From IMG/VR virus record IMGVR_UViG_3300034220_000059, positions 1 through 42,293 of that record: 42,293 nucleotides of DNA; one strand, given 5' to 3'. The notes under the pieces are model-generated. The model was given only the letters and a program-made list of their open reading frames with translations. It searched no databases and was not told the origin of the DNA. Positions 1,109 to 42,293 of the stretch are shown here, piece by piece. Positions within the stretch are counted from its first letter, which is position 1, and each line of letters begins with the position of its first letter. A program made the position numbers and the translations under genes. Origin of the DNA: a virus.

Positions 1109-2299
1109 CTAGGTGGCGGAAAGCAGATCGCCCCAGCTTTGGAACAGCGCGCTAAGCCGGGCGAGTTGGGCGGCGCGGTCGTACGCGGCCTTCACTTTGT
1201 CCTTCGGCGCGTGCGCGAGCGCCCGTTCGATCAACGCACTGTCGTCCGGGTCGACCTCGTTCAAGATCGTCGAGAATGTCGCGCGCCAGCCGTGCGGCAC
1301 GTGTCGCCCGGCATAGCCGGCCTGGTCGTAGAGTTCGCCGATCGCTCCCTCGCCAATCGGCCGATCGCCGCCCCGGCCGGGAAAGATGAGCTCGGCCGCG
1401 CCGGCGATCGCGCGCGCAGCGCGCAAGACCTCGACGGCCTGGCGCGAGAGCGGCACGAGGTGGTCCGCGCCCGAGTCGGCCTTCTTCGCCTTCTTCAGTT
1501 TCATGCGCGCGGCCGGAACGCGCCACAGCGGCGACGGTCCGTCCAGATCCTCGATCTCCGACCAGCGCGCCCCGCGCACGGCCGCGAGGCGGACCGCGGT
1601 CAGCGCCAGGAAACGCGACGCGAGCTTCGCGATCGGCGCGGCCGCTAGCTGGTCGACCGCGGCGAGCAGCTCGCGCGCGTCGGCGATCTCCAACAGCGCC
1701 GGCTGCCGGCGCACCGGCGCCGGCGGCAGCAGCGCGCGCCCGACGATCGCGGCCGGGTCGACTTCCGCCCAGCCCTCGACGATTGCATAGCAGAACACGG
1801 CCGAGATCCGCTGGCGCACGCGCCGCGCCGTCTCGAGACGGCCCCGCTGCTCGACTGAACGCAAGGCGTTCAGCACCACAGGCGGCGTGATCGCCGCAAG
1901 CGGCATCGCGCCAATCACCGGCAGGACATCGCGTTCGAGACTGGCCAGGACGTCGCCGGCGTGGACCTCGGTCCAGCGCGGGAGCATGTGCTCGTGCCAG
2001 CGCCGAGAAACATCCTCGAAAGCACGAGCTTCGACGGTTAGCGCAAGTTCGCAATTTCGGGGGTCACGACCGAGGGCGAGCTGCTCGCGCGCCAGGTCTG
2101 CACGCTCGCGCGCCTGGCCAAGTGACAGATTTTCAGCGTCGCCGATCGTCAGCAGCTGCTCCTTGCCTGCCCAGCGGAAGCGCCAGCGGAATGTCCGGCG
2201 ACCATTTGGCGCGACGAAGAGATGCAGGCCGCGCTCGTCGGCCAGCTTATAGGCGGCCGCGCGGCCGCGCGCGGCTTTCACCGCGGCGTTGGTCAGCAT
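1109..2299 (-). CDS. Tyrosine integrase, P4/DUF4102 type
   Basis: This is a site-specific recombinase of the P4-like family. The N-terminal arm-binding domain (DUF4102; GLHLFVAPNGRRTFRWRFRW, about residues 23-45) is followed by a core-binding domain and a C-terminal catalytic domain. Visible catalytic elements are the Arg in the TAVRLAAVRGARW stretch, the HGWR box (H-x-x-R), the second His in LAHAPKD and the probable nucleophile Tyr in KAAYDRA. Length (396) is normal for the family. The ATG at 2299 follows GAGG at a 7-base spacing. It starts only 11 bases from the divergent small gene at 2311. It is unrelated in its N-terminus to the integrase at the right end, so the two probably use different attachment sites. 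Confidence 0.93.
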   Translation of the reverse strand: MLTNAAVKAARGRAAAYKLADERGLHLFVAPNGRRTFRWRFRWAGKEQLLTIGDAENLSLGQARERADLAREQLALGRDPRNCELALTVEARAFEDVSRRWHEHMLPRWTEVHAGDVLASLERDVLPVIGAMPLAAITPPVVLNALRSVEQRGRLETARRVRQRISAVFCYAIVEGWAEVDPAAIVGRALLPPAPVRRQPALLEIADARELLAAVDQLAAAPIAKLASRFLALTAVRLAAVRGARWSEIEDLDGPSPLWRVPAARMKLKKAKKADSGADHLVPLSRQAVEVLRAARAIAGAAELIFPGRGGDRPIGEGAIGELYDQAGYAGRHVPHGWRATFSTILNEVDPDDSALIERALAHAPKDKVKAAYDRAAQLARLSALFQSWGDLLSAT

Positions 2300-30381: not shown

Positions 30382-31221
30382 TCAGCCCAGGCCGGCCTGC
30401 GCTGCTGCCAGCGTCGCCGGGTCGATCTCGCGCCGCACTTCGCTCAGCAGCTGCGGCCAGAGGTCGAGTGCATCGATCAGCAGCTGCTTCGCGCGCCGAT
30501 TGTGCATGCGGTACCGTCGCGCCACCACGGTGAACCCGACCGCGTCGCCGGTGATCATGTCCAACACGGCCGAGAGCGGCCCACGCACCTGCTTGCACCA
30601 TCGGCGGTACGCCATCTCGCGCCTGACCTGGCCGAGCGCTTCGTAGAATGTGCCGTCACCAACCCGGGTCGAGTCGACGCGAGCTTCAAGGCTCGCGGTA
30701 CGAACCGCGACCTCGGCACCAAGCTTCTCGGCCGCCTCCGCGATCGCGACCGCGCTCGCCAGCTGCTCGGCATCGATGCCGCCCGCCATATACAGGCGGG
30801 CAAGCGGGTTCTCTCGCGTAATCGCCGCGTGCGCGTGGGTTTCCGGCGTGCCCTGCTTATGCGACCAGTCCTCGCGCAGCTTCAGCGCTTGATCGATGGC
30901 CGGCTTGAGCTTGACGGGCTCCTTGCGCTTGGCCCGGCCCTTGCCGACGCTCCTGCCAGCCGGACGGGCTCGGCCTAACACCAAGTGCTCGACGCGCTGG
31001 CGCTCTCGCTCGTCGACGGGCGTGCGCTGCGGCTCTTCGGCTGACAGGTCGAGAACGCGCAACGCGCGACGTCGATCGAGCTCTTCCTGGACTGTCGCGC
31101 GTCGACGCTCCTGGTCCGCATCACGCGCCTGTCGACGCTCCTCGATCGCGTGCTTGTGCTCGCGCGCCGTGATCGCGCGCATTACCTTGGCCTCAGCCGC
31201 TGCTGTCGTCTGTCCCGTCAT
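30382..31221 (-). CDS. Possible regulator with charged coiled coil and C-terminal HTH
   Basis: 279 residues. The first 100 are highly charged (REHKHAIEERRQARDADQER, basic patch VGKGRAKRKEPVKLK). Residues about 225-265 (VGFTVVARRYRMHNRRAKQLL) have the shape of an HTH like sigma region 4 or phage late regulators. It overlaps the LexA-type gene by 29 bases. It is followed by a hairpin and then the genes leading into the late operon, so it could control late expression; this is inference. I do not recognise a named family. Confidence 0.65.
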   Translation of the reverse strand: MTGQTTAAAEAKVMRAITAREHKHAIEERRQARDADQERRRATVQEELDRRRALRVLDLSAEEPQRTPVDERERQRVEHLVLGRARPAGRSVGKGRAKRKEPVKLKPAIDQALKLREDWSHKQGTPETHAHAAITRENPLARLYMAGGIDAEQLASAVAIAEAAEKLGAEVAVRTASLEARVDSTRVGDGTFYEALGQVRREMAYRRWCKQVRGPLSAVLDMITGDAVGFTVVARRYRMHNRRAKQLLIDALDLWPQLLSEVRREIDPATLAAAQAGLG

Positions 31222-31636
31222 TCCGCCCCGCCCCCAGTTCGATGGCAGGGATATGGTCCAGTTCGGCCGCTTCGGGCAGTTCGGGAAACGTCAAGGGCTC
31301 GGCCAACTCGCCCAGCGGCAGCGCGACGAACTGGACGTCGTTAAAGACCTTCCAGCCCTCCCTCTGCAGGACGAGCAGCGCATCGGCGACGCTCACTTCC
31401 TGCTTGGGATCGACCAACCGCAGGCCACGTCGTTGCCCCACGGTGTTGCGGATGTACGCCTCGGCGGTGAGCTGAGCCACCAGCTCGTGCGCGCGCTGCC
31501 GGCTCACCCCAAGACCCGCGCCGATTTCGCCCAAGCTCGGCGACCGGCCCCACTCGGCGAAATAGCGCTTGATGAAGTCCAACGCCTGGACTTTGCGGCT
31601 CGACATCGTCGGGGTCAGGCGGAGCGGTTCACCCAC
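31193..31636 (-). CDS. LexA-type winged-helix DNA-binding protein
   Basis: 147 residues. Residues about 12-65 (KVQALDFIKRYFAEWGRSPSLGEIGAGLGVSRQRAHELVAQL) match the LexA DNA-binding domain pattern (x-LDFI-x5-G-x-SPS-x-EI). The LexA peptidase Ser-Lys domain is absent; the rest is acidic. The listed start is GTG; ATG at 31606 is more LexA-like, with no strong ribosome-binding site for either. It is divergent from the gene at 31696, and a near-match to an SOS box lies between them. It may compete for SOS-type sites or regulate phage promoters (inference). Confidence 0.75.
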   Translation of the reverse strand: MGEPLRLTPTMSSRKVQALDFIKRYFAEWGRSPSLGEIGAGLGVSRQRAHELVAQLTAEAYIRNTVGQRRGLRLVDPKQEVSVADALLVLQREGWKVFNDVQFVALPLGELAEPLTFPELPEAAELDHIPAIELGAGRNDGTDDSSG

Positions 31637-32296: not shown

Positions 32297-32500
32297 ATGC
32301 CCAAGGACCTGGCGCACGTCGCTGCGAAGGGCTTCAAGCTCCGGGTCACCTGTCGCCGGTGCCGCCACCAGCGCGACTTCGATCCTGCGGCTCTGAGCAT
32401 CGAGCTGATGCGTCGGCGAAAGAGCACGATATGGGAGGCGCTGCCGCACCATTTCCGGTGCGAGTGCGGAGCTAAAGGGCCGCGGGTGCTGCCGGCCTAG
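32297..32500 (+). CDS. Small zinc-ribbon-like protein
   Basis: 67 residues from ATG 32297 (GAGG 11 bases before; GTG 32288 is an alternative). CRRC at about 19-22 and CEC near the C-terminus make a Cys4-type zinc ribbon (VTCRRCRHQRDF, then HFRCECGAKG). It follows the duplicated-domain gene by 13 bases. Its stop codon overlaps the stop of the convergent leftward gene (CTAG). Likely a nucleic-acid or protein-binding accessory. Confidence 0.65.
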   Translation: MPKDLAHVAAKGFKLRVTCRRCRHQRDFDPAALSIELMRRRKSTIWEALPHHFRCECGAKGPRVLPA

Positions 32501-32610
32501 GTCAGAACGGCAGCCCAGAGGATCAGGTTTGCGCCTGCCAACATCCCGAGAAGGAAGGTTGCCCTCACCTTCCATCGCTCAATAGCGGCGCGATCTCGCT
32601 CGATGCTCAT
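32497..32610 (-). CDS. Tiny single-span membrane protein
   Basis: 37 residues: MSIERDRAAIERWKVRATFL, then LGMLAGANLILWAAVLT as a membrane segment. The ATG at 32610 overlaps the upstream stop (ATGA), so translation is probably coupled. It is the last of a four-gene leftward cassette and shares the CTAG stop tetramer with the convergent gene. Function unknown. Confidence 0.6.
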   Translation of the reverse strand: MSIERDRAAIERWKVRATFLLGMLAGANLILWAAVLT

Positions 32611-32993
32611 CCGGCTTGCGGGAGGAACCTGATGAGGACGCCAATGATCGCGGCGAGTGCGGACAACAACATCACCAACGTCGTGAACAGCCATGGCTTG
32701 GTCGGGAGATGGCGGACGTTCTCCTTCAGCGTTGCGACATCCGCCTTGAGCACGCTGATGTCGCCACCTTGCCGCTCGGCGCGACCGTCGAACCGATCCA
32801 ACGTCTTCTTGACGTGCTCCATATCGGCCTCAAGGCGGGCGACGCGCGGCTCCATGCCATCGAATGTGCCCCCGCCTCCACCGCCTTGCAATGGCCCGGT
32901 CTGGTCGCGCTGGGACAGCGCACGTCGAGCAGCCTCTTGTTCGGTCAGCGCGTCTGCGGAGACGAGGTGCCGCGGTACCTTCACATCGGCCAT
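32607..32993 (-). CDS. Coiled-coil membrane protein
   Basis: 128 residues. A charged coiled coil (about 48-90, RVARLEADMEHVKKTLDRF) leads to a C-terminal membrane segment (about 102-122, FTTLVMLLSALAAIIGVLI) and ends RFLPQAG. This tail-anchored topology resembles phage proteins of unknown role near repressor genes, some of which affect superinfection. A Gly6 run is at about 37-42. It overlaps the upstream gene by 13 bases. Confidence 0.7.
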   Translation of the reverse strand: MADVKVPRHLVSADALTEQEAARRALSQRDQTGPLQGGGGGGTFDGMEPRVARLEADMEHVKKTLDRFDGRAERQGGDISVLKADVATLKENVRHLPTKPWLFTTLVMLLSALAAIIGVLIRFLPQAG

Positions 32994-33250
32994 GGTAATT
33001 CCAACTTATCGAACACCGCCTTCATCTTCGCGAGGATCTTGGCGTCATGCTCAAGTTGGAAGTCCACGATCTCGCCAGCCGCTTTGCGATCGGGATGCCC
33101 ACTCTGGATTAATGCGGCCAATTTGCCGACTTGTATGTTCACCGATCGCATCTCGGTCCAGAGCTCGAGCACTGCGACGGCTATGCTCCCGGCGTCGAGC
33201 GGTCTGACCTCGACGAAGTCATCGTCGTTTGGTTTCAGGACGTCGCTCAT
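32981..33250 (-). CDS. Small acidic protein, antirepressor candidate by position
   Basis: 89 residues from the ATG at 33250, which overlaps the upstream stop (ATGA). The protein is soluble and helical (VAVLELWTEMRSVNIQVGKL, then IVDFQLEHDAKILAKMKAVF) with an acidic N-terminus (KPNDDDFVEVR). It is the only cassette member without a membrane segment. A small acidic protein under SOS control next to a non-cleavable repressor is what an antirepressor would look like, but no homology supports this. Confidence 0.65.
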   Translation of the reverse strand: MSDVLKPNDDDFVEVRPLDAGSIAVAVLELWTEMRSVNIQVGKLAALIQSGHPDRKAAGEIVDFQLEHDAKILAKMKAVFDKLELPWPM

Positions 33251-33696
33251 TCGGCCACGCACAGCTTCTGGGCCTCGACTAGCGCGTCACCGGGCTGAAC
33301 CTTTGGCACGTAGCCGTTCGGATCACCGCGGCGGAGCAAGCGCCAGCTCTCCTCGTCGACCTTCAGTACGTCGTCGGCATAGGGGTAGAGCGCCCGCCCG
33401 ATACCGTTCAGCGCATACCTTTTGCCGTTAGCCTCGAAGAATGGAGTGCCCTTAACGCAGCCGAGGGTCCCACCAGGAACGGTGAAAGGCCAAACCAAGC
33501 CGCGCGATGCAAAAACGTCGGCGCTGACCTTCTCGGCCCCGGTGCGTGGCTCACCAAACACGACGCTGACGATCCAGATCGCCAGCGAGATGACCACCAC
33601 CAGCGAGATCAGCGCCTTGGCCTGGTCAGACACGCCGCTGCCTGTGGAAGAGTTGGGCGGCTGTTCGGCCGATCTCTCGCCGGGAGCCATGCTCAT
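33247..33696 (-). CDS. DUF2511-like membrane-anchored protein
   Basis: 149 residues. A membrane segment at about 28-47 (ALISLVVVISLAIWIVSVV) is followed by a domain with WPFTVPGGTLGCVKG and ANGKRYALNGIGRAL, the pattern of DUF2511/YebY-type domains. The C-terminus is EAQKLCVAE. The ATG is preceded by GGGAG at 8 bases. First gene of the cassette downstream of cI, with its own SOS-box match upstream. Function of the family unknown; expected in the periplasm. Confidence 0.78.
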   Translation of the reverse strand: MSMAPGERSAEQPPNSSTGSGVSDQAKALISLVVVISLAIWIVSVVFGEPRTGAEKVSADVFASRGLVWPFTVPGGTLGCVKGTPFFEANGKRYALNGIGRALYPYADDVLKVDEESWRLLRRGDPNGYVPKVQPGDALVEAQKLCVAE

Positions 33697-33731
33697 GCGG
33701 GGACTCCCATCTATCGCGATGCACTGCTACA

Positions 33732-33746
33732 GAACGAAAAGAGAAC
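33732..33746 (-). promoter_or_regulatory. SOS (LexA) box match, GTTC-N7-GTTC
   Basis: The leftward strand reads GTTC TCTTTTC GTTC, a full match to the direct-repeat SOS box of alphaproteobacteria. It ends 36 bases before the DUF2511-like start. A weak -35-like TTGTTC overlaps it. A random match in the whole window is not rare, but inside this 127-base promoter gap it is unlikely. Confidence 0.6.
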
Positions 33747-33823
33747 AACAAGGTCGAGTCGCTTGAGCACCCCTGCCCTCCTCGCGACGGCGGCGTGCAG
33801 CATCGGATGCGCACCCTGCGCCG

Positions 33824-34318
33824 TCATGTGCGCGCTGCTCGTCGCGGTGCGGAATGATCGTTGGCTTGAGCTTCAGCGAGCTCGGGCGCGTCATCGTCAT
33901 CTTCCGGATCCGCGCTCGGCAGCGCGTCTCCAGCGATGCGAAGCACGATGGGAAGACGCTTGGCTAGCTCACGAGCAAGCTCGGCCTCGTCCATTTTCCG
34001 AGACGCGATCAGCACGCCCTGGAACGCCTGCGCTAACGCCCGTTCGCTCGGTAGGGCGACGGGCAGGGTGACGTACTGGACGCGGGGCTCGGGCAGCGGT
34101 GGCGGCGCATTCTCGTCGGGATTGTCGGTTTCGCCGCTCAGGTATGCTGGCGTTGTGCCGAGGGCGCGCGCGATCTTGTGAAGGTGAGTAGACGACCGAG
34201 AGGTGCCGTGGACCAAGTGATTAATCGTGCTCTGCCGCACTTGGACGCGGCGAGCCAATTCTGACTGGGACATCCCGAGCCGATCTAATCGCTCCTTTAT
34301 GCGTGTCCCAACGATCAC
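33824..34318 (-). CDS. CI-type repressor without peptidase domain
   Basis: 164 residues from GTG 34318. An XRE/CI HTH spans about 5-60 (MSQSELARRVQVRQSTINHL with the recognition helix, then LHKIARALGTTPAYLSGE). The C-terminal part has a short helix (ERALAQAFQGVLIASRKMDEAE) and an acidic tail with no S24/LexA-type Ser-Lys dyad or cleavage Ala-Gly in a folded domain. It cannot self-cleave in the usual RecA way. It is divergent from cro across an 84-base operator region. Induction must use another route. Confidence 0.87.
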   Translation of the reverse strand: MIVGTRIKERLDRLGMSQSELARRVQVRQSTINHLVHGTSRSSTHLHKIARALGTTPAYLSGETDNPDENAPPPLPEPRVQYVTLPVALPSERALAQAFQGVLIASRKMDEAELARELAKRLPIVLRIAGDALPSADPEDDDDAPELAEAQANDHSAPRRAART

Positions 34319-34327
34319 ACGCGCGTT

Positions 34328-34345
34328 CTATCAGCAGAATGATAG
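34328..34345. promoter_or_regulatory. Operator O1
   Basis: CTATCA GCAGAA TGATAG has perfect 6-bp arms around a 6-base core and lies 10 bases before the CI start. It matches the reverse complement of O2 at 17 of 18 positions, strong evidence that both are sites for the same protein (CI or Cro). Confidence 0.85.
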
Positions 34346-34375
34346 CTCGCATTGCGAGAGTCTGCATTGACAGAC
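34346..34375. promoter_or_regulatory. Two inner inverted repeats between the operators
   Basis: CTCGCA T TGCGAG (34346-34358) and GTCTG CATTGA CAGAC (34360-34375) are perfect and sit end to end between O1 and O2. They share GCATTG. They may bind a second regulator or fold. Confidence 0.6.
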
Positions 34376-34394
34376 CTATCATTCTGCTCATAGC
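34367..34394 (+). promoter_or_regulatory. Rightward early promoter (PR-like)
   Basis: A consensus -35 TTGACA (34367-34372) is followed after 16 bases by CATAGC, a weak -10, or TAGCTA at 18 bases. The start of transcription would fall at or within a few bases of the cro ATG. O2 covers the spacer and -10, as expected of a repressible promoter. Confidence 0.65.
34376..34393. promoter_or_regulatory. Operator O2
   Basis: CTATCA TTCTGC TCATAG; arms match at 5 of 6. Its reverse complement differs from O1 at one base. It overlaps the PR spacer and -10. Centres of O1 and O2 are 48 bases apart. Confidence 0.85.
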
Positions 34395-34402
34395 TACCTG
34401 TC

Positions 34403-34684
34403 ATGATCGAAGTGGCCACTCCGTTTGAGGCGTTTGAGGAAGCGGTCCGCATTGCGGGCGGGCAGGCCCCGTTCGCGCGCCTGGTCGGCTGCACCCAGGG
34501 CAACATCTCGCAGCTGCTCAAGAATAAGCGGCCGCTCTCGCCGCGCTACGTCCGCAAGGCCGAGCAAGTGACCGGCGTCCCGAAGGAAGCACTTCGCCCA
34601 GACCTCTACCCGCCCGAGTTCGCCGCGCCTGCTCAAGCGCCCGCCCCGCACGAGCAGTTCGCCGGCATGGCACCGAATCGGTGA
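34403..34684 (+). CDS. Cro/YdaS-type regulator
   Basis: 93 residues. An HTH of Cro/YdaS type covers about 8-60 (FEEAVRIAGGQAPFARLVGCTQGNISQLLKNKRPLS, then VRKAEQVTGVPKEAL and RPDLYP). DLYP at the end of the domain is frequent in phage YdaS/Cro proteins. No Shine-Dalgarno precedes the ATG and the promoter sits directly before it, so the mRNA may be leaderless. First gene of the rightward early operon. Confidence 0.88.
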   Translation: MIEVATPFEAFEEAVRIAGGQAPFARLVGCTQGNISQLLKNKRPLSPRYVRKAEQVTGVPKEALRPDLYPPEFAAPAQAPAPHEQFAGMAPNR

Positions 34685-37685: not shown

Positions 37686-38191
37686 TGCGCGGTCTGCCCG
37701 AACCGATGATGACGGTGCCTGACAAGCTGGGGGCAGCCGGTCGTGCCTGGCGCATAGATTTGGCAGCGCTGTCGACCGCGCTGGCTATCCCGATCGAGAA
37801 CAGCTCGCTCGTTGCGAGCTGGATTATCGAGGCACCTTGGGCGCACCCGCTCTGGCATTCTTACAATCTTACGCTTGTGCACCTTCGCCCAATGGAAGGC
37901 GTGGGCGAGCCGATTGTCTATCGTCAGGGCGCGACGCACGAACTGCTGCTGTTCGCGCTCGATCCGGAAGCCCCGCGCGAGCCGATGCTCCGCTCCGCGC
38001 GGCCGCGCTGGCTCTACCCGGCCAACTTTGCCGCCCAGCTCGTCGAGGCGAGCGACGCCGCGGCCAGCGCGCGTGTCGAGGCCACGGTAGATCTGGTGGT
38101 CGCCGGCGAGCTTAACCCCGACACCGACTTTCGCCGGCAATGGATCGCGCTGTTCGGCGACGACATGGTCAGATCGGATTACCGGCGGTGA
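37685..38191 (+). CDS. Hypothetical early protein
   Basis: 168 residues, TGATG overlap. It looks well folded (ENSSLVASWIIEAPWAHPLW, then NLTLVHLRPMEGVGEPIVY and ATHELLLFALDPEAPREPML) with conserved-looking Trp and His. No family recognised. It lies directly before the ParB-like gene. Confidence 0.68.
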   Translation: MRGLPEPMMTVPDKLGAAGRAWRIDLAALSTALAIPIENSSLVASWIIEAPWAHPLWHSYNLTLVHLRPMEGVGEPIVYRQGATHELLLFALDPEAPREPMLRSARPRWLYPANFAAQLVEASDAAASARVEATVDLVVAGELNPDTDFRRQWIALFGDDMVRSDYRR

Positions 38192-40347
38192 ACGGCGCGA
38201 GCGCCCCCGATCCTTGCGCCTGCCCCGAGTGCAAACAGCTCGACCGCGCGCACCCGCGCGAGGGCGTCCAGCTGCGCCTCGTCCCCACCAGCTTGGGGGA
38301 CCGGCCGGAAGCGGCCCCCCTCCCCGATCCCGACGCACCGACGGTTCCAGCCGCCGATGTGAGCGCACCCAAGGCCGCCCTGTCGAGACATGCGCTCGCG
38401 GCCGAAGCCGGAGAACAGCCCGTGGCTAGCATGACCCCGACGTTTCTGACCATCGCCCAGCTCGACCTGAGCCCGTTCAACTGCCGCACCAACGAGGAGG
38501 ACAAGGCGAAGGTCGACGCGATCGCGCGCTCGATCGCTACGCGCGGGCTGATCCACCCGCTCCAAGTCCACCCCATGAAGGGGTCGAAGAAGTTCGGGGT
38601 GTTCGCGGGCGGGCGCCGGTACCGCGCCCACAAGAACCTGATCACCGCCGGCGAGCTGCCGCCCGAGCATCAGATCGCCGTGATCGTGCGCGACCTGGCC
38701 GAGGTCGACCTGATCGAGATGTCGCTGTCGGAGAACCTGCTCCGCCGCGACCTCCGCCCCTATGAGGAATACGCGGCTGTCAGGCGCGCGCAGGCGAAGG
38801 GGCACTCGGCCGAGCAGATTGCCGACGCGATCGGCCAGGACCTGATCTGGGTGCGGCGCGCGCTGCGCTTGGCGGACCTTGCAGAGCCGATCTTCACCGC
38901 GCTCTCGCGGGGCGGGATCACCGTCGAGCAGGCGCAGGCGTTTGCCGCCACAGACGACAAGACGTGTCAGCTCCTAGCCTGGAACTCGGTGCGCGGCGCG
39001 GCGCACTCGCTGCCGGTCGACCTCAAGGCCGCGACCATCCGCGCCGCGCTTAAGATTGGCGATGCGGAGCTCGACCGACTGATGAGCTTCGTAGGCGAGG
39101 CTGACTACCGCGCTGCCGGGGGCAGTTGGGAACTCGACCTGTTCGCCGGCGAAGCAGGCGATCGCGGGATGCTGACCGACGAGGGGCTGCTCCGCACGCT
39201 TGCGAAAGCCAAGCTCGACGAGAAACGTCAGGCACTGCGCCGAGCGATCGGCCGCGACGTCGAGTTTCGCCCCGCGCCGCCCGCCCACCCCGAATATCGC
39301 GGCGCGGAGGACCACACCCTCCGCATATACCCGACTGAGGTGAACGGTGCGCCGACCAACCTGCCGGCCGGCGACGTCGTCGGCGTGCTCAAGGTCACGA
39401 ACGCCGGAGAGGTCGACGTGACTTGGTGGTGGGAAAGCCGCAAGGCGAAGAATGCGGGCGCCAAGAAGGACGCGCCCAAGCTGTCGACGGCCGCCGCGGC
39501 GTTGCCGAGCGCAATCATCGATCCGGCGGGCGCGACCGCCCAGGCCGCCGACGCGCAGATTCGCGAGGAGCTGGGCGGGACGCGCGATACCGTTCAGATA
39601 TTCCGCTCGATGCGCCGGTCGGTGCTGCGAGCCGCGCTGATCGACGACGCGCGCGGAGGCGGGGCAGCCGCGCAGGACCTTTTCACCTGGTCGCAATGCC
39701 GTCTGCTGCTGGGCGACGACTGGCGCCTTTCCGGCCAGATCGGCGTGGGTGCGATGCGCGGCCAGTCCGCGGACCCGGGCGAAGCGGCGGGGCATCTGCG
39801 CGCCATGCCGGCGCAGCGGGTGATCGATCAGGCCGTGCGCGAGATCTCGGTCCGGCCCTGGATGGCCGAAGCCGACCTGGGCAAGTCGTTCCTGGAGTAT
39901 CGTGACGAGTCGGCCGCCATCCGCCAGCTCGCCGCTGCGATCGTCGCCGGCCTGGCGCTCGAGCGCTCGGTCAATGCAGACGGCTACCGCTTGGGCGTCC
40001 ACGACGCGCTCGCGGGCGAGCTCGGGCTGACCAACGATGAGGCAATGCGCCGCTACTGGACGCCGACCGCCGAGTTGCTCGCGCTCTTCCCGCGCGACAA
40101 TCAGCTCGAGATCGCCGAGCCGTTTGTCGAGGCGGCCGTGTTCGGGACGTGGCAGCGCCTGAAGGCGGGCGAGCTCACCCCCCTCGTGCTGCGCGTCGTC
40201 ACCGGTGCTGCGACCGCCGTCCGGCGCAAGCTCGCCGACGCCGCCGCGACGTGGGTGCATCCGCTGCTCCGGTTCGAGCCGGCGGCCGCGCCTAATCCTC
40301 CAACCATCGCCGCGACCACGGCCGAGTTCGAGGACGCTGGGCGATGA
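38188..40347 (+). CDS. Large ParB-like protein
   Basis: 719 residues from GTG 38188 (GTGA overlap); a longer frame from 38140 would overlap more. N-terminal Cys motif (DPCACPECKQ), a Pro/Ala linker, then the ParB/Srx-type domain: PFNCRTNEEDKAKVDAIARS, GLIHPLQVHP, the GGRRYRA box (GERR in typical ParB) and MSLSENLLRRDLRPYEEYAA, followed by an HTH (GHSAEQIADAIGQDLIWVRR). The C-terminal 450 residues have no clear match. Bacterial ParB binds parS and CTP; phage ParB-like proteins may regulate or cleave DNA. No ParA is encoded near. Confidence 0.87.
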   Translation: MNGASAPDPCACPECKQLDRAHPREGVQLRLVPTSLGDRPEAAPLPDPDAPTVPAADVSAPKAALSRHALAAEAGEQPVASMTPTFLTIAQLDLSPFNCRTNEEDKAKVDAIARSIATRGLIHPLQVHPMKGSKKFGVFAGGRRYRAHKNLITAGELPPEHQIAVIVRDLAEVDLIEMSLSENLLRRDLRPYEEYAAVRRAQAKGHSAEQIADAIGQDLIWVRRALRLADLAEPIFTALSRGGITVEQAQAFAATDDKTCQLLAWNSVRGAAHSLPVDLKAATIRAALKIGDAELDRLMSFVGEADYRAAGGSWELDLFAGEAGDRGMLTDEGLLRTLAKAKLDEKRQALRRAIGRDVEFRPAPPAHPEYRGAEDHTLRIYPTEVNGAPTNLPAGDVVGVLKVTNAGEVDVTWWWESRKAKNAGAKKDAPKLSTAAAALPSAIIDPAGATAQAADAQIREELGGTRDTVQIFRSMRRSVLRAALIDDARGGGAAAQDLFTWSQCRLLLGDDWRLSGQIGVGAMRGQSADPGEAAGHLRAMPAQRVIDQAVREISVRPWMAEADLGKSFLEYRDESAAIRQLAAAIVAGLALERSVNADGYRLGVHDALAGELGLTNDEAMRRYWTPTAELLALFPRDNQLEIAEPFVEAAVFGTWQRLKAGELTPLVLRVVTGAATAVRRKLADAAATWVHPLLRFEPAAAPNPPTIAATTAEFEDAGR

Positions 40348-40792: not shown

Positions 40793-41127
40793 CGGCACCC
40801 TCGATCGTCCGCCTTGACCAGCGCCTCTCCCGCGCCGTCGAGGTTGGAAAGGGCATCCGACTTGAGCCTGCGGACCTCGACCTGCTGGCCAGCATCGGCC
40901 TTTTCGACAAGCTGCACGTCGCCAAGGCGAATCATCTCAAGGAACAGGCGCGATGCCGCGACATGAGGCTCCGATCTATCGACGGGGGAAGTACTGGCTC
41001 GACTGGGATCGGAAGGCAGATGGGGCGCTCCGCTCGCCCTACCTCGCCGCCTTCTGGTACGATCCCGATGCCGGACGCGTCCGGAGCCGTTCAACGCGGA
41101 CGACGCAGGAGGGCGAAGCCATCTTAG
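40789..41127 (+). CDS. Excisionase-position protein
   Basis: 112 residues from GTG 40789. The first 55 look real (SIVRLDQRLSRAVEVGKGIR, then LEPADLDLLASIGLFDKLHV); residues after about 56 overlap the integrase gene in another frame (40953-41127) and are Arg/Ser/Gly-rich. Upstream of an integrase, a small DNA-binding protein of this type may be an excisionase or directionality factor, but it has no clear HTH match. The C-terminal extent is uncertain. Confidence 0.5.
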   Translation: MTAPSIVRLDQRLSRAVEVGKGIRLEPADLDLLASIGLFDKLHVAKANHLKEQARCRDMRLRSIDGGSTGSTGIGRQMGRSARPTSPPSGTIPMPDASGAVQRGRRRRAKPS

Positions 41128-42293
41128 CTGTTGACCGCATTTACCTCGCCGATGTCGGCGAGGCCTCGTCCTTCTGCCACACGTGCGGCCAGCCGCTCGC
41201 CCAAGCTCAGGCGTATCTGCTCGCTGACGCGATCGCCGACTACCGCCTGGAGTGGGGTGACGCGCGCGCGTCTGGCGACACGATCGAGGGACGGCTGAAA
41301 CACGTCCTCGACTTCCTGGAAGCGGAGGACGGGCGCGGGCTGGAAGGACGGTTCGGCACGTCGACCAGCTGCGGTGCTGCCTGCACCACCGCGTTCGTGA
41401 CCGCATTCCGGGCCTGGTCGCGCCTGCAGCCTGTGACCTGGCGTAATGGTAAGGGCGAGGTGACGGTGTCTCGGCAGCGGTCGCTGGCGTCGACCGAGGC
41501 GGCGATCGCGCAGCTCATCGCCGTGCTGAACCACGCCGCTAACGCCGAGCCGCCGAGGTCGGAAAAGCGGCCTGCCTATAGGCCGCTGCCGCCCAAGGAG
41601 GTCCAGCGCCGACGGCGATCGCGAGTCGGGGTAGCCGAGCTTGCCGAAATGCTCGCCTACGCGGCCGAGCCAGGAAAGCGGCGCGGATCGCTTCACCGCT
41701 TCATCATCGGGTCGCTCTGCACGATCGCAAGGCCGAGCTCGGTGGTGGACATCTGCGTCGCGCCGGATCGCGGCCAGTGGTCGCCCGGCTCATCGACGAT
41801 CGACCTGAACCCGGCCGGCCGGCCACAGACGAAGAAATATCGCCCACTGCTGCCCGTGCTGCCGCTCCTCGGCGAATGGCTCGAATCGGAATGGGTCGAG
41901 TACCAGGCGCTCGACGAAGACGCGCGCGCCGGGCGGGGCTTCCTTGTGAACTATTACGGCCGCCCGGTGCAGGACGTCGACAGCGCCTGGGCCGCGATGC
42001 TCGTCGAGCTCAAGATGCCGACCGGCCGCGAGTGGCGATCCTACCTCCTCCGCCACAGCCTTGCGACGATCGTCCGCAATGGCGGAGCAGAACGCTGGGA
42101 TCTCGAAGGCTACATGGGGCACGTCGCCCCGAGCCAGACCGAGGTCTACGCGGTGGGAGAGTTTCCGAGCGTTGTGCGCGTGCTGCGCGGCGTCCTCGAC
42201 GAGATCGACAAGCTGGCCCCGGGCTCCCTGCACCGGAAAGACACCGGAGCCAGCCTGCCGTCACTCCGGCGCGTGGAGGCCAGAATGACCTAG
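40953..42293 (+). CDS. Phage integrase (tyrosine recombinase)
   Basis: 446 residues, ending at the window's last base. The N-terminal arm domain (YRRGKYWLDWDRKADG) is followed by CHTCGQPL, a possible zinc knuckle or structural Cys pair, and a core-binding region. Catalytic domain: Arg in IARPSSVV, Lys in QTKKYRPLLP, YLLRHS for the box-II Arg (the preceding His is Tyr here, as in several relatives), GHVAPS His, and probable nucleophile Tyr in TEVYAVG. It is the terminal gene of the early operon, which suggests it serves this phage. The attachment site should lie just beyond its stop. Confidence 0.9.
   Translation: MPRHEAPIYRRGKYWLDWDRKADGALRSPYLAAFWYDPDAGRVRSRSTRTTQEGEAILAVDRIYLADVGEASSFCHTCGQPLAQAQAYLLADAIADYRLEWGDARASGDTIEGRLKHVLDFLEAEDGRGLEGRFGTSTSCGAACTTAFVTAFRAWSRLQPVTWRNGKGEVTVSRQRSLASTEAAIAQLIAVLNHAANAEPPRSEKRPAYRPLPPKEVQRRRRSRVGVAELAEMLAYAAEPGKRRGSLHRFIIGSLCTIARPSSVVDICVAPDRGQWSPGSSTIDLNPAGRPQTKKYRPLLPVLPLLGEWLESEWVEYQALDEDARAGRGFLVNYYGRPVQDVDSAWAAMLVELKMPTGREWRSYLLRHSLATIVRNGGAERWDLEGYMGHVAPSQTEVYAVGEFPSVVRVLRGVLDEIDKLAPGSLHRKDTGASLPSLRRVEARMT

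Follow-up and report, generated by a model that had tools for sequence, protein, structure and literature searches.

Repressors that carry no S24 peptidase domain raise the question of how the prophages that depend on them sense DNA damage. The question arises in a viral record of 42,293 bases, which was analysed as a whole and is called the window here, and in this case the likely answer is orfX, a gene lying antisense to the repressor gene. The record holds terminase, portal, protease/capsid, tail, endolysin and integrase genes, and the region considered below would serve a temperate phage of Sphingomonas type as its immunity switch. It contains cI (33824-34318, minus strand), encoding a 164-aa HTH repressor, and, divergent from it, a YdaS/Cro-type HTH gene (34403-34684, plus strand). 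Between the two lies a 21-nt inverted repeat (34328-34393; arms 34328-34348 and 34373-34393) whose arms are 90% complementary and represent candidate operators.

To characterize CI we combined domain searches, AlphaFold2 and a fold search. The protein matches HTH_3 (E 1.4e-11) and shows no S24 match in the domain search. The AlphaFold2 model, built on 38 sequences, consists of five HTH helices and two C-terminal helices (residues 92–105 and 111–131) with no strands at all, and the fold matches include SinR. The preliminary description of this DNA had proposed a repressor without an S24 domain, and the purely helical C-terminus, in which structure prediction finds no S24-type fold, bears this out. 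CI therefore lacks the C-terminal peptidase that defines the lambda CI/LexA (S24) repressors, and Peptidase_S24 was not found anywhere in the record. Nor was Peptidase_M78, which would be encoded alongside a repressor of the ImmR/ImmA or DdrO/IrrE type, found in the record, though an enzyme of the host might serve instead. The two C-terminal helices belong to a module (residues 84–135; 33914-34069, minus strand) delimited by predicted structure and locus comparison.

Behind cI lies the sequence GTTCTCTTTTCGTTC (33732-33746, minus strand), the GTTC-N7-GTTC that had been noted earlier as an SOS (LexA) box and that reads GAAC-N7-GAAC towards orfX. It is the single match in the window, against 1.24 expected from shuffles. 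As about one match is expected by chance, the box alone proves nothing and relatives were needed to decide. A single-sequence search of viral contigs with CI returned no relatives, and these were therefore reached via the terminase and mapped around cI, and later via alignments. In two of them, L010 and L011, the box is in the same place behind cI and the leftward genes are unrelated to those of the window. All three loci have a similar ORF across the box, on the strand opposite to cI, with the motif C-x3-C-x2-C-x3-C; a fourth case is MT836451. Alignment searches with CI and orfX yielded 45 loci, some in Sphingomonas genomes and others in viral contigs, which were reduced to 29 non-redundant loci for statistics. 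Every one of the 45 has orfX on the strand opposite to the 3' part of cI.

In the window, orfX occupies 33763-34071 (plus strand) and would encode, from a TTG start, a 102-aa four-Cys helical-hairpin protein, the proposed antirepressor. The Cys motif (C12, C16, C19 and C23) lies at 33796-33831 (plus strand). A weak but likely Shine-Dalgarno sequence, AAGG, is found at 33750-33753 (plus strand), at the position where L010 has AGGAGG and L011 GGGAGG. An orfX-based search found the gene in 39 of the 201 genomes of one Sphingomonas group, so the gene may account for the induction of prophages across much of the genus. These genomes and one plasmid locus supplied 14 new loci, all 14 with orfX antisense to the CI module and six with the exact box. 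The plasmid, NZ_CP155752, was the one annotated record examined, and its annotation includes CI but omits orfX. Long overlaps between opposite strands tend to be discarded by gene-finding programs, which is why orfX stayed hidden. OrfX matched no family in Pfam, NCBIfam or PHROG, no similarity to known antirepressors was found by sequence in the same three collections, and a fold search gave just generic helical hairpins (best E 1.4).

The relatives allow the box to be judged. Counting boxes no more than 110 nt upstream of the first Cys codon of orfX, exact GAAC-N7-GAAC precedes orfX in 17 of the 29 non-redundant loci, whereas shuffles give 0.10 on average and 2 at most. A GAAC pair with spacings of 4–6 or 8–10 does not occur in the same 29 loci. 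Thus the earlier observation of such a box beside this kind of repressor extends to a conserved arrangement. The exact box is missing from the other 12 loci, among them L067, which has one-mismatch versions instead. The gap between box and orfX start is 16 nt in the window and 13–24 nt in every boxed locus but one, and orfX is the constant neighbour of the box across loci. In the Sphingomonas genomes that carry orfX loci, the box also stands before lexA (17/17) and recA (18/18), as well as before uvrA in 10 of 10 genomes. This identifies the box before orfX as the host SOS box, as had been suggested from the motif. By its promoter sequence, orfX would thus join lexA, recA and uvrA in the alphaproteobacterial SOS regulon, and control by LexA is very likely. 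The box has GAAC towards orfX, unlike at lexA and recA, which might be held against this assignment; uvrA counters the objection, as the orientation there is the same in all 10 genomes and the distance similar. A consensus scan of the region for a sigma-70-type promoter gave no matches.

To assess whether orfX is translated into a selected protein, we recoded cI synonymously, keeping codon usage, and scored the overlap with a leave-one-out orfX profile (100 recodings per locus). The mean score dropped from 42 to 4.4 bits, and the native overlap outscored all 100 recodings in 29/29 loci. The mirror test for CI gave 59 versus 5 bits, and together the two tests indicate that both frames are coding. 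The part of orfX outside cI behaves likewise: over its first 50 codons, in five relatives with a shorter cI, pN/pS is 0.124, while in the same stretch four of the other frames lie at 1.2–2.9 and the frame sharing the codon phase at 0.29. The first three Cys codons are outside cI, yet none of the four Cys varies across 40 sequences. A start codon is found exactly 11 residues ahead of the first Cys in 25 of the 29 non-redundant loci, against 0–9 at other offsets. That orfX exists as a gene is, from these sequence comparisons, near certain, and it is a selected, dual-coded protein gene. The locus clearly exemplifies antisense dual coding under selection, and each frame can be probed by mutations silent in the other.

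Structure predictions suggest how the two products might meet. OrfX is predicted to form two long helices (pLDDT above 90 at residues 21–70), so that both OrfX and the C-terminal module of CI are modelled as helix pairs. In these models the sequence coding for OrfX helix 1 lies opposite that for the disordered tail of CI, and the sequence for the disordered OrfX tail opposite that for the first module helix of CI. The module has been seen only together with orfX in the fetched loci. The helix pairs, the SinR fold match, the precedents for LexA-run antirepressors and this constant association lead us to propose the following switch. CI, with its HTH and two-helix module, would silence the prophage and, unlike lambda CI, would not cleave itself. 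LexA bound at GAAC-N7-GAAC would close the orfX promoter; after DNA damage, LexA cleavage would release rightward transcription of orfX into cI. The four-Cys hairpin would then bind CI, its most likely contact being the helical module at the C-terminus, and, in the manner of SinI with SinR, would break up the oligomer that CI needs to bind its operators; transcription against cI would simultaneously cut the resupply of CI. We consider this full scheme, in which LexA-freed OrfX inactivates CI and for which we infer LexA binding, CI binding and induction, to be reasonably probable, and hold the narrower claim that OrfX is an antirepressor of CI with about the same confidence. The four invariant Cys may add metal or redox control. 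If the scheme is true, one DNA stretch in dormant Sphingomonas viruses probably carries both lock and key.

The proposal has close precedents. Non-cleavable repressors are countered by LexA-controlled antirepressors in the Gifsy phages (GfoA/GfhA/GftA), 186 (Tum) and N15 (AntC) (PMC3121763). As in those systems, CI here has no self-cleavage domain, a small phage protein gene appears by sequence to be preceded by a host LexA box, and, by analogy, inactivation of the repressor would occur by binding. Unlike the Gifsy antirepressor gene, which lies outside the immunity region, orfX is inside cI on the opposite strand; OrfX also lacks a match to any known antirepressor family, and its four-Cys hairpin is new. 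In B. subtilis, the helix pairs of SinR and SinI form a mixed four-helix bundle that abolishes DNA binding (PMC3163267). The models likewise predict that CI is an HTH repressor with paired helices at its C-terminus and that OrfX, its putative small partner, is a helix pair too, the likeness being one of predicted helix pairs with no sequence similarity shown. However, SinR/SinI is not a phage pair, is not run by the SOS response, and sinI is not antisense in sinR. Prophage TF-smORF modules encode small, mostly unannotated proteins that inactivate CI independently of SOS (PMC10432266). One orfX clade resembles them in adjoining a LuxR-type regulator gene, whereas those modules are not antisense in the repressor gene and the orfX of the window has an SOS box. 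Finally, olg1 and gene 10 of phage Fc02, which overlap on opposite strands, are situated upstream of the repressor gene and have a role in superinfection exclusion (PMC9936078). They share with orfX an opposite-strand overlap within a phage immunity region, but that overlap is not inside cI and is not under LexA.

Other readings of the locus have to be weighed against this switch. OrfX might be an SOS-induced effector that acts elsewhere than on CI (on host division, RecA, replication or some other phage regulator), with the overlap a frozen accident of the lineage. Overlapping genes are hard to separate, so co-occurrence is not proof of interaction; since the overlap forces joint travel, finding orfX always with the CI module counts for less than it might seem, and the four Cys could bind metal, which would hint at another activity. 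We nevertheless regard such a target as unlikely, if a serious minority view, because the arrangement persists although the sequences differ widely and CI comes with two unrelated HTH types, because a repressor lacking S24 needs some SOS-responsive inactivator, and because no other conserved candidate is present at the locus. Alternatively, the switch could work at the RNA level, LexA-controlled antisense transcription halting CI synthesis by collision or pairing while the OrfX protein plays a lesser or separate part. In every locus a box-driven transcript must indeed enter cI from its 3' end. This account is improbable, as strong purifying selection acts on the OrfX protein, outside cI too, its start codon and Cys motif are conserved, and CI already made would persist under interference alone.

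The preliminary description had assigned the box to the leftward cassette on its other side. The first gene of this cassette encodes a 149-aa membrane protein (33247-33696, minus strand; not conserved), followed by the 89-aa soluble protein (32981-33250, minus strand) named there as the antirepressor, a 128-aa coiled coil with a membrane segment at its C-terminus (32607-32993, minus strand; relatives in five loci) and a 65-aa ORF with a hydrophobic segment at its C-terminus (32497-32694, minus strand). The box does lie 35 nt from the first leftward ATG, that of the 149-aa gene, and its GTTC orientation on this side is like that at lexA and recA. Yet no relatives of the 149-, 89- and 65-aa proteins were found in the fetched loci; phages and viral contigs likewise gave none for the 149-aa protein, and the leftward ORFs of other boxed loci are unrelated and start from about 30 to more than 200 nt from the box. 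With the leftward relatives absent and orfX constant, orfX is the better candidate, and we consider an antirepressor role for the 89-aa protein very improbable. The general idea of a LexA-run antirepressor for a repressor lacking S24 thus stands, box included; the gene and the direction do not, since orfX is on the opposite side of the box. As the box sits between two divergent genes, it may also control the leftward gene of this phage. The 128-aa coiled coil weakly matches a hemolysin PHROG (E 0.019). A reading in which both are accidental, the antisense ORF orfX being spurious and the box matching by chance, deserves next to no credence: long antisense ORFs are common in GC-rich genomes and the box is not significant within the window alone (1.24 expected), but the reading is statistically refuted in the relatives by the recoding test, the pN/pS outside cI, the fixed start codon, the invariant Cys that lie partly outside cI and the enrichment of the box.

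The switch proposed here, with OrfX acting on CI, may be exchangeable in its parts. The C-terminal module of CI is fused to two different, unrelated HTH types, the other N-terminal HTH being found in L142, L143, L145, L147, L148, L139, L134, L144, L146 and L149; the sequences point to domain exchange upstream of the overlap. In about ten box-less loci, largely of one clade, a LuxR/GerE-type HTH gene starts beside orfX on the other strand. Judged by its position, it might provide the same small protein with an input independent of SOS. Tested as alternative inputs, the SOS box and the LuxR gene gave Fisher p 0.005, an association that loses weight since most LuxR members belong to a single clade. 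Taken together, we lean, a little less firmly than for the switch itself, towards a dual-coded unit of repressor and own LexA-triggered antirepressor that moves as a single module among repressors differing in their DNA-binding domains and can be rewired, to the SOS box or, in one clade, to the LuxR-type regulator. The loci of the LuxR clade are L132, L133, L137, L062, L064, L066, L052, L047, L190, L194 and L207. Four box-less loci (L060, L061, L082 and L136) share a sequence upstream of orfX, about CAAGTTATTGAGAAA, and three others (L055, L197 and L216) share about GTAGCCGGCACGGGAGCCTGAA; judged by sequence, these are perhaps other operators.

Some further features of the record lie away from this switch. 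A small winged-helix protein encoded at 31193-31636 (minus strand) has a weak LexA_DNA_bind match (E 8e-4), its neighbour is a 279-aa protein (30382-31221, minus strand), and the two recur near the terminase genes of relatives. A 735-aa protein with a ParB-like part is encoded at 38140-40347 (plus strand); the phage carries integrases as well. Two integrase-like genes are present, one at each end of the record (1109-2299, minus strand, and 40953-42293, plus strand), and both match phrog_1 (E 6e-45 and 3e-12, respectively).
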